Shown here piece by piece: positions 12,089 to 18,431 of a stretch of 33,388 bases of DNA. The stretch comes from a bacterium (GTDB taxonomy: Bacteria > Ratteibacteria > UBA8468 > B48-G9 > DTJG01), in the NCBI GenBank assembly GCA_021800535.1, contig JAJYYV010000020.1, positions 1 to 33,388 on the forward strand. Reading direction: 5' to 3'. How positions within the stretch are numbered: the first letter of the stretch is position 1; every line of letters begins with the position of its first letter. The notes below the pieces were generated by a model. It saw only the letters and a list, made by a program, of their open reading frames with translations. It made no database searches and was not told the origin of the DNA. Made by a program: the position numbers and the translations under genes.

Positions 12089-13110
12089 TTTTTATCCTCA
12101 GTTATTATCATAGCAGTAGAATCTGTTGTTATAATTGTGTCCTCTGATTTTGTTCCTGAAATTGATGGATTCCAGGCATATGCCTGGTGAGATTCAATAA
12201 TACCTTCTGAATTGAAATTTGCCCTGTAATACCTTGCCTGATAACCAGTTGGACCGCCCTGGTGATGCATTTCCCATTCATTTTCAAAGCCTGTTTGTTT
12301 ATAGGATTCAATAGCATTTGTAAATATAGTGTTTAACCTGTTATCCGGGACACTTTCTGAAATGAATGTGGCGTCAACCGTGCAAACCGCTTCATGTTTT
12401 TGTTTTAATTTGTCAGAAATTTTTCCAAAGCTGACCAGTCTTGTTAAAGAAGCAATCAATCCATATTTTCTTGCGCATACCACCACCATAGCATAATTTT
12501 TAAGTTTTTTTAATGTTGGAAGCGGGTGTCTGTATTTTTCTATTCTGTCATCAACAGCAATTAATATAACCACAGGGATTATATTAACTTTCCAGAATTC
12601 ATTTGCAACTATTGAGGCTATTTCTGTTTCTGTCATACCTGGAAGTATTTTTTGACAGACATCAGAAATAATTTTTCCTGATACAGAACCGAGTTCCTGA
12701 TATTTTTCAATTTCTTCTGGAATCAAAGGAAAATGAAGGCTATCTAAATTGATATATTTACATCCATTAATTACACTATCTGCTCCAATTTTTTCTCCTG
12801 TAATTTTTTTGGCTTCTTCTATCAGTTTTTCATCCTCATACCATGGGAGAATAATTTTTTCTAAATTAATACCATAAACTTCTTCATCCAAGACCCTTGG
12901 GGCTTCAATATTGTTTGTAAGCAAAAATATTTTATCCTGTGTAATAACAAGGCTACTTGCTCCTTCTTCTGAATTTAATCCGACATAATTTTTCCCTCCG
13001 CCTGTAAACCATGAAAAGTTTGAAACCTTGCGCAGAATAATACCATTAATGTCTTGGTTTTTTAATAATTTTCTTACTCTTTCTTGTTTAATCTCTATTT
13101 CCTTTGACAT
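12022..13110 (-). CDS. M24 (Xaa-Pro peptidase-like) protein with most metal ligands missing
   Basis: 362 residues: creatinase-like N-domain (~1-140) and pita-bread M24 fold (~145-362). The fold is clear from LPGMTETEIASIVANEFW and HHQGGPTGYQARYY. Active M24 peptidases use Asp, Asp, His, Glu, Glu. Here the stretch expected to hold the two Asp reads VVVCARKYGLIASLTRLV with no Asp, and the first Glu region reads YAWNPSISG. Only H282/H283 and E323 (GTKSED) remain. It is probably not a standard metallopeptidase and may bind a ligand or have a changed site. Related proteins are widespread and sometimes carry the odd label 'antitoxin VapB'. A good AGGAG lies six bases before the ATG, with a TATAAT (minus strand 13135-13130) upstream. 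It precedes nfeD. Confidence 0.82.
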   Translation of the reverse strand: MSKEIEIKQERVRKLLKNQDINGIILRKVSNFSWFTGGGKNYVGLNSEEGASSLVITQDKIFLLTNNIEAPRVLDEEVYGINLEKIILPWYEDEKLIEEAKKITGEKIGADSVINGCKYINLDSLHFPLIPEEIEKYQELGSVSGKIISDVCQKILPGMTETEIASIVANEFWKVNIIPVVILIAVDDRIEKYRHPLPTLKKLKNYAMVVVCARKYGLIASLTRLVSFGKISDKLKQKHEAVCTVDATFISESVPDNRLNTIFTNAIESYKQTGFENEWEMHHQGGPTGYQARYYRANFNSEGIIESHQAYAWNPSISGTKSEDTIITTDSTAMIITEDKKWPMKEIKINGKDILRPDILIR

Positions 13111-13145
13111 TTTTGCTCCTTTCCTTTATATTATATTCCATATTA

Positions 13146-13175
13146 TTTACAGATTTACTTTACTTTTTTTATATT
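13146..13175 (+). promoter_or_regulatory. Candidate promoter of the PIG-L/LmbE operon
   Basis: TTTACA (13146-13151), 18 bases, TATATT (13170-13175), in the 100-base gap between divergent genes. The ribosome site of the downstream gene begins about 25 bases later. AT-rich background lowers confidence. Confidence 0.35.
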
Positions 13176-13210
13176 ATTATGTCAATTTCTTAATTTATTT
13201 GGAGGTTAAA

Positions 13211-14536
13211 TTGAAAAAATTCGTTTTTTTAATAATTGTTGTTGTTTTTTTCAATCTTGTCCATTCTTATTCCCAGCCTATTAGCCCTCTGGGTAAATTT
13301 ACCAGTAAAGATAGAATTTTAATATGTGCGCCCCATCCTGATGATGAGGTTTTGGGCTGTGGCGGTATAATTCAACAGGCCATTGCTCAAAAAAGCAAGG
13401 TATATGTTGTTTTTCTTACCAATGGAGACCATAACTGGCTGGAATTTAAAATTTTTGAAAGAAAATTAATCCTTCATCCTTACAACTATATTCAGATTGG
13501 AGAACAAAGAAGAAAAGAATCCATTAATGCAGAAAAAATTTTGGGTGTGCCGGAGAAAAATCTTATTTTTCTTGGTTATCCTGATGCAGGAACAATGCTT
13601 ATCTGGCAACACTATTGGAATGTTAAAAAACCCTATTATGATTTTTTAACAAAGGTTAATTATGTTCCTTATCCGCAGGCATTATCTTATGGCAGTCCTT
13701 ATGCCGGAGAAAGTATTGTTTCTGATTTTGTAAAAGTATTAAAAATTGTGAAGCCCACAAAAATTTTTATTACAAATCCTGTTGATACAAATTCTGACCA
13801 TAGAGCTATTTCTAATTTCCTTTTAGTATCCCTGCTTGAAATGAAAAACCAGATACATCCGGATGTGTATTTTTATCTGGTACACTATTATAAATGGCCT
13901 TTTGCCTGGCCTAAACCCAGAAGATTTGCTCCAGATGATACACTATATCCACCAGAGGTACTTCTTAAAACAGGCCACTGGGTTTCATCTTTTTTTACTC
14001 CCCAGCAGGTTCAAAATCAGGCTTCTGCTTTAATGTGTTTCCATTCTGAAATGATTGGCAATAAAGGTTTTATTCTTTCCTTTGCCAGAAAAAATGAAGT
14101 ATTTGAAAAAATGCATATACCATTAGTGGGAAAAGAAGGAAATACTTTTTTAAAAACCAGGATATGTTATTTTAATATTTCACAAAATTCTAAATCTGTA
14201 ATATTTAATATAACATTCCAGCAGCCTGTTAAAGATATATATAATTTAAAAATGTACCTGTTTGGTTATAATAAGAAAGTTTCTTTTTCTACAATGCCCA
14301 AGATACAGGTGGAAGTTAATATCCATAAAGTGAAATCTGTAAGAAATGGAAATATTTATATCCCAGCAGATATAATAAAATATGTAAAAAATCCGTATGG
14401 AAATAAAATAACCTTAATAGTTCCAAAATATTTACTTGGAAATCCACAATACCTTTTTGTGGGAGGAGAATCAAGACTGGGGGAACTCCTTATAGATTCT
14501 TTCCCAGAGAAATTGTTTAAACTATCCTCTTTTTGA
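13211..14536 (+). CDS. Secreted PIG-L/LmbE-family deacetylase
   Basis: I place the start at TTG 13211 because GGAGG (13201-13205) is correctly spaced and the next residues form a signal peptide (KKFVFLIIVVVFFNLVHSYS); the open frame upstream to 13028 has no ribosome site. 441 residues. The PIG-L zinc motif HPDDE is at 42-46 (ICAPHPDDEVLGCGG), and the distal part has TNPVDTNSDHRA supplying the second His. PIG-L enzymes remove N-acetyl groups from GlcNAc-type sugars; the substrate is not shown. The last ~150 residues form a beta-rich tail outside the family core. Likely exported. First gene of a run leading through vapB to the HtrA genes. Confidence 0.85.
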   Translation: MKKFVFLIIVVVFFNLVHSYSQPISPLGKFTSKDRILICAPHPDDEVLGCGGIIQQAIAQKSKVYVVFLTNGDHNWLEFKIFERKLILHPYNYIQIGEQRRKESINAEKILGVPEKNLIFLGYPDAGTMLIWQHYWNVKKPYYDFLTKVNYVPYPQALSYGSPYAGESIVSDFVKVLKIVKPTKIFITNPVDTNSDHRAISNFLLVSLLEMKNQIHPDVYFYLVHYYKWPFAWPKPRRFAPDDTLYPPEVLLKTGHWVSSFFTPQQVQNQASALMCFHSEMIGNKGFILSFARKNEVFEKMHIPLVGKEGNTFLKTRICYFNISQNSKSVIFNITFQQPVKDIYNLKMYLFGYNKKVSFSTMPKIQVEVNIHKVKSVRNGNIYIPADIIKYVKNPYGNKITLIVPKYLLGNPQYLFVGGESRLGELLIDSFPEKLFKLSSF

Positions 14537-15539: not shown

Positions 15540-17585
15540 ATGAAATATATAAAAATAAGCGGAGGTATATTTTTGTTATTTGCTACTTTTATATTTTCTG
15601 CCAAGGCACAAAATACAAGTCTTGTAACAAAAAATCAGAAAATAATTGCTTCAATTATTTCTGAAGTAAAACCTGCCCTTGTAAAAATACATGTTGTTCT
15701 GGCTCAATATCAAAATGGAAGAGAGATAAAAATAGAAGCTGTTGGAAGTGGAGTTATTATTAACCCACAAGGATATGTGGTGACAAATTATCATGTGGTT
15801 GGTAAAGCGATATGGATTATGTGTACCCTTTATAATAATAAACAGATTCCAGCTAAATTGATTGGTGCAGACCCTTTAGCTGATATTGCTGTTGTAAAAC
15901 TACAGAACCCAAACCATGAAAAATTTTCTTATGCACAATGGGGTAATTCTTCTAAATTAAAGGTGGGGGATACTGTATTTGCTCTAGGTGCCCCTTATGC
16001 TTTTTCTCAGTCAGTAACAATGGGTATTGTAAGTAATACAGGCGCTGTAATACCATCTTTTTTCTGGCCTTTCAATGAATTTACTCTTAATGGAGAAAAT
16101 GTTGGTTCAATTGTAAAATGGATAACACATGACGCTCCTATTTATCCTGGTAATTCAGGAGGTCCACTTGTAAATCTCAAAGGTCATATTGTGGGAATAA
16201 ATGAAGTTAGTTTTGGTCTTTCCGGTGCCATTCCTTCTAATCTTGCAAGGTATGTGGCAGGTCAGCTTATTAAATATGGACAAATAGTCCGGGCCTGGCT
16301 TGGATTTGAAATTCAACCTCTTTTAAAGATTTCTTCAGAAAACAGAGGTGTTCTTATAAGCACAGTAATAAAAGGTTCTCCTGCCCAAAAAGCAGGATTG
16401 CGTTCTGGAGATATTCTTTTAAGTTTAGATAACAAAAATGTCACTGTAAAATATTTAAATCAGGTTCCGGATTTTAATTTATTTGTTTCTAAACTGCCCA
16501 TTGGCAAAGAAATAAATATGGTTGTTTTAAGAAATGATAAAGAAAAAACATTGAAAATTGTTCCAATTATAAGACCTCCTGCAAAACAAAAAACATATCA
16601 ATTATCAAACTGGGGAATGGATGCTTCTGATATTTCTTTTATTCAATCTAAAACTTTAGGTTTAAAATCAATAAATGGAGTACTTGTGGATTCTGTTATT
16701 ACAGGAGGACCCTGCAATGAAGCAAAACCTGATATAAAAAGCAAGGATGTTATTGTAAAAGTGAATGGAGTAAATATCAAAAATATCAAAGATTTAATTT
16801 CCATGACAAAAGGAATGATTAAAATAACAAAATCCAGTAAAACAAGTATTCCTGTTCTTGTTAATTTTAAGAGGAAAGGAGCTTCATATATTACAGTAGT
16901 TAATATAGGACATCAACCTTCTGTAGGTATGGGCCAACAAGCAAGACAGGCATGGCTTGGAGTTAAAATTCAGGTTTTGACAAAACAAATTCGTAAACTT
17001 CTTGGACTTCCAAATGTTCATGGTGTTAGAATTACAAAAATTTATCCTGATAGTCCGGCCAGGACAGCAGGATTAAAAGTAGGTTATTTTATTACTGCTA
17101 TTAATGGGCAACCTCTTTCTTTAAGAAGAGAAAGTGATAAAAATATTTTTTATGAAATGATAAAAGGATTTAATATTGGACAGGATGTGAATTTTTCAAT
17201 AATGAAAGGGAAAAAGACATTTATAAAAAAGGTTAAACTTATATCTTCTCCGCAACCCCCGGAAGAAGCCTCCAAATATAAAGATAAAGAATTAGAATTT
17301 AGTGTAAGAAATTTTACCCGTCTTGAATCTCTTGAGAAAAAAATTAATAAAGGTGTTATTGTGACAGAAGTTAAAGAAGGCGGATGGGCATCTTTGTCAC
17401 ACCTTGCTGTAGGTGATATTATTATTTCTGTAAATGGAATAAATATCGTAAACTGTAAAGATTTTGGAAAATTAATGAATAAAATAGAAAAAGCAAAAAG
17501 CAAAACAATTATCTTAAAGGTGGAAAGAGATATCTACACACATTTTATTCAGATAATTCCACCATGGGAGACAAGGAAAACATAA
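15540..17585 (+). CDS. HtrA/DegP-like serine protease with four PDZ domains
   Basis: 681 residues, longer than DegP. Signal peptide 1-23 (cleavage likely after AKA). Trypsin-like domain ~35-245 with H85 (TNYHVV), D115 (DPLADIAVV) and S206 (GNSGGPL), all intact. After it come about four PDZ-like repeats: ~250-345 (RAWLGFEIQ...SPAQKAGLRSGDILLSL), ~358-455 (GGPCNEAKPDIKSKDVIVKVNG), ~470-570 (QAWLGVKIQ...SPARTAGLKVGYFITAING) and ~585-675 (GGWASLSHLAVGDIIISVNG). DegP has two. It would act in the periplasm on misfolded or specific envelope proteins; extra PDZ domains could gate or dock substrates. A GGGGG ribosome site precedes the ATG. The next gene is a related pseudo-protease, 24 bases on. Confidence 0.92.
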   Translation: MKYIKISGGIFLLFATFIFSAKAQNTSLVTKNQKIIASIISEVKPALVKIHVVLAQYQNGREIKIEAVGSGVIINPQGYVVTNYHVVGKAIWIMCTLYNNKQIPAKLIGADPLADIAVVKLQNPNHEKFSYAQWGNSSKLKVGDTVFALGAPYAFSQSVTMGIVSNTGAVIPSFFWPFNEFTLNGENVGSIVKWITHDAPIYPGNSGGPLVNLKGHIVGINEVSFGLSGAIPSNLARYVAGQLIKYGQIVRAWLGFEIQPLLKISSENRGVLISTVIKGSPAQKAGLRSGDILLSLDNKNVTVKYLNQVPDFNLFVSKLPIGKEINMVVLRNDKEKTLKIVPIIRPPAKQKTYQLSNWGMDASDISFIQSKTLGLKSINGVLVDSVITGGPCNEAKPDIKSKDVIVKVNGVNIKNIKDLISMTKGMIKITKSSKTSIPVLVNFKRKGASYITVVNIGHQPSVGMGQQARQAWLGVKIQVLTKQIRKLLGLPNVHGVRITKIYPDSPARTAGLKVGYFITAINGQPLSLRRESDKNIFYEMIKGFNIGQDVNFSIMKGKKTFIKKVKLISSPQPPEEASKYKDKELEFSVRNFTRLESLEKKINKGVIVTEVKEGGWASLSHLAVGDIIISVNGINIVNCKDFGKLMNKIEKAKSKTIILKVERDIYTHFIQIIPPWETRKT

Positions 17586-17609
17586 AAAATTTTAACAATT
17601 GGAGGCTAT

Positions 17610-18431
17610 ATGATTAAAAAATTAGTATTGTGTTTTTTATCTTTTGCAGTTGGAGTAACAATAGTAAAAGCTCAAAATAGTAGTGAAATTGGGAAAAAAA
17701 TTTTTAAGACCTACCGTAATAGTGTAGTTACCATAAAATTTGTTCTTCAGGAAAGAGCTGTTATGAAAGGACGGGAAGGCGCAAGTGTAGAATCCAAAAT
17801 GCAGACCAATGGGACCATTATTTCAAAGAATGGTATTATTGTTTGTTCTTTAACCACTTCAAATCCTTCTAAACTTATAAGCCAGTTTATGGGTGCAGGT
17901 TCTAACCTTTCTATTAAAAGCAAAATAACCAGTATAAAAGTAAGGTTTCCCAATGGCCAGGAATCCGAAGCCAATATTCTTCTGACAGACCCGGGAGAAG
18001 ATATTCTTTTTATTAAACCTGTAAAAATACCTTCTTCTATGGTATATGTTAATCTTTCTAATAATGCCAGTCCTGAAATTTTTGATAATATATTTTTCCT
18101 GAGCAGATTAGGAACAATGGCAAATTGGGCGGCATTGATTTCTTCTGGTACCATAAGTGGAATAATTAAAGAGCCAAGGCTGGTTTATATACCTGAAAGT
18201 GAAGAATTTGCTAACGAATCCTTTGGGGATGTTCTTGGAAACCCGGTTTTTGCATCAAATGGGAAAATAATTGGTATAATTCTTTTAAGTAAAGGAATAT
18301 CATCTAATGAAGGAGCAAATATGGGATCTATGTTATTTAACTCAACAGAAGCTTTGGGAACAATCCCTGTAATTGTTCCAGCAGGTGATATTTTGAAAGT
18401 GGAATCTCAGATAAAAACTTCCTCTAAATAA
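17610..18431 (+). CDS. Secreted S1-type pseudo-protease
   Basis: 273 residues with a signal peptide (cleavage likely after VKA, residue 21). It aligns with the HtrA protease domain upstream: GTIISKNGIIVCSLTTS against the HtrA His region, DPGEDILFIKP against the Asp region and GDVLGNPVFASNGKIIGI against the Ser region. By this alignment the catalytic His is Thr82 and the catalytic Ser is Leu209; only the Asp (D131) remains. It should be inactive as a protease, and it has no PDZ domain. Downstream of HtrA after 24 bases with a GGAGG site, it may bind or regulate that protease or hold substrates (inference). Confidence 0.78.
   Translation: MIKKLVLCFLSFAVGVTIVKAQNSSEIGKKIFKTYRNSVVTIKFVLQERAVMKGREGASVESKMQTNGTIISKNGIIVCSLTTSNPSKLISQFMGAGSNLSIKSKITSIKVRFPNGQESEANILLTDPGEDILFIKPVKIPSSMVYVNLSNNASPEIFDNIFFLSRLGTMANWAALISSGTISGIIKEPRLVYIPESEEFANESFGDVLGNPVFASNGKIIGIILLSKGISSNEGANMGSMLFNSTEALGTIPVIVPAGDILKVESQIKTSSK

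Follow-up and report, generated by a model that had tools for sequence, protein, structure and literature searches.

Two adjacent genes in a 33,388-nucleotide stretch of a Ratteibacteria genome (contig JAJYYV010000020.1; the whole stretch is called the window below) encode an HtrA-type serine protease with four PDZ domains and a second, catalytically dead protein of the same fold. Taken together, our analyses suggest that the two genes probably encode one exported heteromeric HtrA machine of the diderm envelope, in which the dead subunit would have a structural or allosteric role. The pair recurs across phyla with its adjacency conserved and is thus beyond chance. Export, a physical complex, its stoichiometry, the structural or allosteric role, and the direction of control are inferences. 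An earlier note on this DNA had proposed an active enzyme and a secreted pseudo-enzyme partner here, giving the first an intact His-Asp-Ser triad and about four PDZ repeats and the second the same fold, its His replaced by Thr and its Ser by Leu. The coordinates of both genes are exact, and the triad, the PDZ repeats, the fold and the two replacements are borne out by the features described next; both proteins have an N-terminal hydrophobic segment.

The first gene (15540..17585, forward strand, as are all parts of the pair given here) encodes a 681-residue HtrA/DegP-like serine protease that begins with a hydrophobic segment. A domain search returned Trypsin_2 (1.2e-28) and four PDZ stretches, and residues 59-342, spanning the protease domain and PDZ1, match a DegP-like chain (E 1e-49). 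The triad is intact, with His85 (codon CAT, 15792..15794; invariant in the alignment), Asp115 (15882..15884) and Ser206 (TCA, 16155..16157), the last lying in GNSGGP and so within the GNSGG motif. His-Asp-Ser is kept in 64/64 aligned HtrA sequences. With domain boundaries set by us, PDZ1 and PDZ2 (residues 252-345 and 355-456; 16293..16907) are the counterpart of the first-gene PDZ pair of the split relatives described below, and PDZ3 and PDZ4 (residues 470-572 and 585-676; 16947..17567) that of the PDZ pair fused in those relatives to the dead protease. Judged by its four PDZ domains and by a score of 383 bits against TIGR02037 (the NCBIfam ‘Do family’), below the cut-off of 416, the predicted protein is HtrA-like and lies outside the standard Do subfamily. 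PF12812, the PDZ-like domain of Nma111 type, scores 21.1 bits on it, below the cut-off of 28; among ten relatives scanned, the second gene of one locus (L065) alone passes (30.8).

The second gene (17610..18431) lies on the same strand as the first and 24 bp past it; the gap between them holds a Shine-Dalgarno-like GGAGG (17601..17605). It encodes a 273-residue protein with an N-terminal hydrophobic segment and no PDZ domain, and one copy was found in the window genome. As a single query, the protein matched Trypsin_2 alone in the domain library (1.6e-4, under the curated cut-off) and no NCBIfam model at E up to 0.01. A profile built from 36 dead-protein relatives reached HtrA/DegP chains in the PDB (best 5e-9). 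An AlphaFold2 model of the window protein, with a predicted local distance difference test (pLDDT) score of 90 and a predicted template modelling score of 0.85, aligned with HtrA protease domains at Z 19.5-21 among the matches listed, which include Deg9, DegQ, DegP, DegS and MamO. The profile, the predicted model and the lost His and Ser identify the second gene product as a predicted HtrA-fold pseudoprotease. By a simple hydropathy rule, a hydrophobic N-terminal stretch is present in both window proteins, in 35/36 dead proteins and in 32/35 HtrAs of our alignments; export of both window proteins is likely on these sequence features. LpxB is also encoded in the window, which fits a diderm envelope.

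The loss of catalytic residues is consistent across the family. Thr82 (17853..17855) occupies the site of the catalytic His and Leu209 (18234..18236), in the motif LG-x-P-V/A-F, that of the catalytic Ser, and both residues are gone in 36/36 dead proteins. Ser, Thr or Ala predominate where the His was lost, and Leu is the commonest residue where the Ser was lost (18/36). The triad Asp is retained in the window (Asp131, 18000..18002) and in 31/36 dead proteins, so that two of the three triad residues are lost; the remaining 5/36, all of the window type (type I), have lost the Asp as well. Some of the 36 proteins are close relatives of one another (the window with L020; L009, L101 and L102 within a single genus), and one is a truncated copy. 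Around the replaced Ser, G210 (36/36), P212 (30/36) and F214 (31/36) are conserved, as are E61 (34), E118 (35), D127 (35), R166 (34), P189 (36) and R190 (35 of 36) elsewhere. By the earlier note’s own terms, its proposal would fail if the second protein kept a working alternative active site, and the residues largely speak against one. No His or Cys column exceeds 7/36 in the dead family (best His 6/36, best Cys 7/36), and there is thus no conserved catalytic His or Cys. Ser is, however, conserved in two columns close to the lost His, column 80 in 30/36 and column 74 in 29/36 (Asn74 in the window), and Lys110 is conserved in 28/36; an unusual Ser site is thus conceivable in principle. With no conserved His accompanying these Ser columns, a new Ser active site is unlikely.

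Lost catalytic residues are also what a functionless, decaying duplicate would show. That explanation is hardly credible here, given that the ratio of nonsynonymous to synonymous substitution rates (dN/dS) is low in both genes (dead gene 0.12, HtrA gene 0.13), the same two residues are lost in 36/36 proteins across many phyla, and adjacency is retained. These ratios derive from one gene pair (window versus L020, NG86 method) with dS near 1 (about 1.06 and 0.77, respectively). On this comparison the dead gene is under purifying selection.

The two genes are inherited together. An initial search found the dead protein in 5/99 genomes, the window’s included, with an HtrA gene upstream in 5/5; the surrounding genes of those five loci are alike only in the same-genus genome. 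Separate profile searches of 386 genomes, with cuts at E up to 1e-140 for the four-PDZ HtrA and above 150 bits for the dead protein (the latter set after viewing the list), found the HtrA in 15 genomes, the type I dead protein in 15, and both in 14. The earlier note had staked its proposal on co-occurrence in relatives, and the pair holds together in 14 of 15 genomes in each direction, with both singletons at contig ends: one contig (G021, 4596 bp) stops about 100 bp past the HtrA gene, and another (G100) starts inside it. In 15/15 dead-gene loci of this set the HtrA gene lies directly upstream on the same strand. At E up to 1e-10, the dead-protein search gave 44 genomes, comprising 15 with type I, 6 with the split type II described below, and 23 others that stand outside the counts; nine of these 23 were fetched (L124-L132) and resemble ordinary single HtrAs. 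Second matches in G175 and G311 are likewise outside the counts, and in the HtrA search no more than three candidates were scored for any one genome.

A scan of named genomes with the HtrA alignment, limited to the best 80 loci, gave a similar picture. Three of these loci are truncated (L051, L052, L075) and one ends before the second gene (L057). In 31 loci (L020-L050) the four-PDZ HtrA is complete or almost so; one of them (L032) has no downstream DNA, leaving 30 testable, and the dead gene is adjacent on the same strand in 29 of them, downstream in 28 and upstream in one. Because some loci fall in both samples (G021, for one, is L032), the counts of the two are not additive. The upstream case (L025:2730-5617) has the order reversed, dead protease then HtrA. 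As a control, 20 ordinary DegP loci (L080-L099), 19 of which have more than 3.6 kb of downstream DNA, were inspected and the dead partner was found at 0/20; in two Vibrio loci a second HtrA gene is present, its His and GNSGG motifs intact. Within the best 80 loci, the pair occurs in records, nearly all of them metagenome-assembled, whose labels span more than ten phyla or candidate phyla, including Omnitrophota, Nitrospirae, Armatimonadetes, Verrucomicrobia, Planctomycetota, Hydrogenedentota, WOR-3, Kiritimatiellota, Sumerlaeota, Terriglobia, Myxococcales and others.

A larger conserved operon around the pair was considered and set aside: among 247 other neighbor open reading frames, no other family occurs in more than 3/34 loci. 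Five groups reach 3/34, three of them in the three Hydrogenedentota loci (L027, L031, L034); the fourth is tRNA-synthetase-like by eye (L008, L021, L028), and the fifth is a reverse-strand reading frame overlying the HtrA gene (L030, L034, L037). A plasmid-borne unit was likewise dismissed, as plasmid searches, one of them at E up to 1e-60, gave no match for either protein. Several single loci have features of their own. In L037 (5938-7484) two dead-protease genes stand in tandem behind one HtrA, the second copy cut by the contig end, and in L007 (5720-14557) a 2945-residue open frame lies directly downstream of the pair. A PIG-L type deacetylase-like protein is encoded upstream of the pair in the window (13028-14533); the same-genus locus L006 has what looks by eye like a similar protein, likewise upstream.

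In relatives the same domains are distributed differently between the chains. In a split arrangement (type II), a two-PDZ HtrA gene is followed by a gene for a dead HtrA domain with two PDZ domains of its own. This type was seen in loci labelled Zixiibacteriota, Calditrichota and Latescibacterota and in one Planctomycetota locus (L076). In 22/22 split loci with both genes (L053-L079), PDZ profiles place the first-gene domains best with PDZ1-2 and the second-gene domains best with PDZ3-4. Six further type II genomes were found via the dead domain, and the HtrA gene is directly upstream in 6/6. In aligned columns, type II dead domains have lost the Asp in 28/28; two keep the His and two others the Ser, with at most one triad residue left in any of them.

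A third arrangement (type III), in planctomycetes, has a longer second gene. In one planctomycete locus (L066:2982-6518) all parts lie on one open chain, 1179 residues as submitted, in which an active HtrA domain is accompanied by four PDZ stretches and by what appear to be two dead domains, the latter inferred from the model of a relative (L151). Similarity to the second half of this chain was detected in 18/199 genomes, its own included, and in 13 of the 17 non-fused loci an HtrA gene lies upstream. Among loci without one, two start near contig ends (L155, L165), one is cut (L164), and one has about 1.3 kb of upstream sequence with no HtrA match (L163); one further locus (L167) resembles type II. 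The second genes were modelled singly, and that of L151 is predicted to hold two HtrA-fold domains ahead of a PDZ pair (mean pLDDT 75; residues 23-255 and 252-506, Z about 14).

The HtrAs of all three types group in a single clade, separate from the 22 DegP-type sequences included (FastTree support 0.999), in a tree whose DegP rows are weaker matches of the same scan rather than a full outgroup and from which four long-branch dead second genes were left out. Support for type I and for types II and III together as separate groups is weak (0.76 and 0.55, respectively); with 190 columns it was 0.92 for the former, and the latter was not recovered. The same PDZ pair occurs on the active chain, on the dead chain, or on a single chain with both, which is easiest to understand if the chains share one assembly.

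These arrangements also bear on whether the dead protein might be a stand-alone adaptor or chaperone, capturing substrates and handing clients to the HtrA from outside any stable oligomer. The window dead protein has no PDZ domain of its own, which makes PDZ-independent client binding plausible, and the near-constant association of the two genes would suit it too. We nonetheless consider this role unlikely, as the dead domain of the split relatives bears PDZ3-4, a feature that suits an assembly subunit better than a free adaptor.

Several known systems offer close comparisons. The nearest experimental model is plant Deg7, a single chain in which one protease domain is active, another is dead and four PDZ domains are present (PMC3473262); its dead domain mediates homotrimerization (PMC3473262, PMC4754418). 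Like Deg7, a clade III Deg/HtrA protein with the layout PD-PDZ-PDZ-PDia-PDZ-PDZ (PD, protease domain; PDia, its dead counterpart), the window set has one active and one dead protease domain and four PDZ domains in two tandems, here as the sum of two genes. Deg7 is a single eukaryotic chain, whereas the window set consists of two bacterial proteins, both probably carrying export signals, and PDZ3-4 sit on the active chain rather than on the dead one. The Deg7 order of active-PDZ-PDZ-dead-PDZ-PDZ is accordingly absent from the window’s two genes; the order in L066 is comparable, but with apparently two dead domains. A bacterial precedent is MamE/MamO of magnetotactic bacteria, where one organism likewise has an active HtrA alongside a dead protein of HtrA fold. 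According to PMC4794232, MamO is required, non-catalytically, for MamE-dependent proteolysis, efficient proteolysis depends on its TauE domain, and contact with MamE was not detected.

By analogy, the window dead protein might serve the same pathway as the HtrA without acting on it, perhaps by binding a metal or another ligand, as the MamO protease domain binds metal in magnetosome formation. MamO is a dead protein of HtrA fold whose metal-binding role beside MamE is a separate one (PMC4794232), and it aligns to the window dead-protein model at Z 19.5. We regard such a function as improbable. MamO has a C-terminal TauE domain and a metal site, and the window pair misses the NCBIfam cut-offs for MamE and MamO (the HtrA scores 184 bits versus 800 for MamE); the dead protein had no MamO match among those models at E up to 0.01. 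The MamO metal site uses a His pair, and no His or Cys column is conserved in the alignment of the dead family itself; Asp/Glu sites could still bind metal. A convergent TauE/SafE-like permease gene, by eye, lies beside the pair in one locus (L009:8716-9483). As MamO carries a TauE domain, this gene was considered as an echo of MamO and rejected, since it does not recur in other loci.

DegP, DegQ and DegS share the triad of the window HtrA but have one or two PDZ domains versus four, and the DegP-type control loci lack the dead partner and fall outside the clade of types I-III. Arabidopsis Deg5 and Deg8 are two different HtrA proteins in one hetero-oligomer (PMC4877387); in contrast to the window pair of active and dead proteins, they are described there as two Deg proteases.

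In the heteromeric machine that we favor, the first gene would supply the catalytic subunit with its four PDZ domains, and the second a dedicated non-catalytic HtrA-fold subunit that builds the oligomer or sets its state. The dead subunit may organize trimers or higher assemblies, and/or its loops may switch the active subunit on when substrate binds the PDZ domains. It would thereby act like the dead protease domain of plant Deg7, but in trans.

Several observations weigh against this proposal. Co-inheritance and adjacency would also fit two proteins of the same pathway that never touch. Distances among HtrAs and among dead proteins correlate (r=0.83 over 32 loci; 0/2000 permutations as high, maximum 0.57), which speaks for the proposal, but this correlation partly mirrors co-inheritance alone. 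The role of scaffold rather than regulator would rest on likeness to Deg7. The query of the best-80 scan held PDZ3-4, so that recovery of the second gene in its split loci was partly built in, and the full fusion in L066 is the sole one among the 18 matching genomes. The spread is patchy, with the dead protein in 4/35 genomes of the window’s phylum. Finally, one locus labelled Tepidisphaera (L048, 4791-7046) has a four-PDZ HtrA for which almost 5 kb of flanking DNA on each side shows no detectable partner, and the partner is therefore not absolutely needed. This is the only testable exception among the type I loci of the best 80, and it may reflect a state before partner gain or after partner loss.

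The unpartnered HtrA also speaks to a further possibility, that the dead protein is an inhibitor holding the HtrA latent until it is removed by stress. A dead subunit of the same fold could block or mis-order an active trimer, and close linkage would suit such control. PDZ swapping between chains and the one-chain fusion better fit a constitutive partner, and with an HtrA standing alone in L048 we judge an inhibitor to be quite improbable.

The shared heteromeric assembly would have precedents in kind, and in this respect the earlier note’s description of an undescribed pair requires amendment: active/dead HtrA sets are already known in Deg7 and MamE/MamO. What appears to be undescribed is the widespread bacterial two-gene version with its three arrangements, of which no description was found among the literature matches listed, all open-licence papers.

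HtrA proteases have mostly been studied as homo-oligomers, and their switching among idle, chaperone and protease states remains a matter of debate. A subunit type that is permanently dead would separate architecture and allostery from catalysis, so that HtrA switching could be tested by including or omitting the partner. In the host phyla of the pair, little work has been done on envelope quality control. More tentatively, and with some doubt on our part, the pair may represent a widespread bacterial class of hetero-oligomeric HtrAs whose four PDZ domains are moved between the active and dead chains in evolution or fused into one chain with both, as a two-gene counterpart, and possibly the source, of eukaryotic Deg7/Nma111. 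The putative fungal orthologue of Deg7 is presumably Nma111/Ynm3, likewise a double HtrA. Kinship with Deg7/Nma111 would be an attractive idea, and shared ancestry, if true, would bear on the origin of those eukaryotic proteins.

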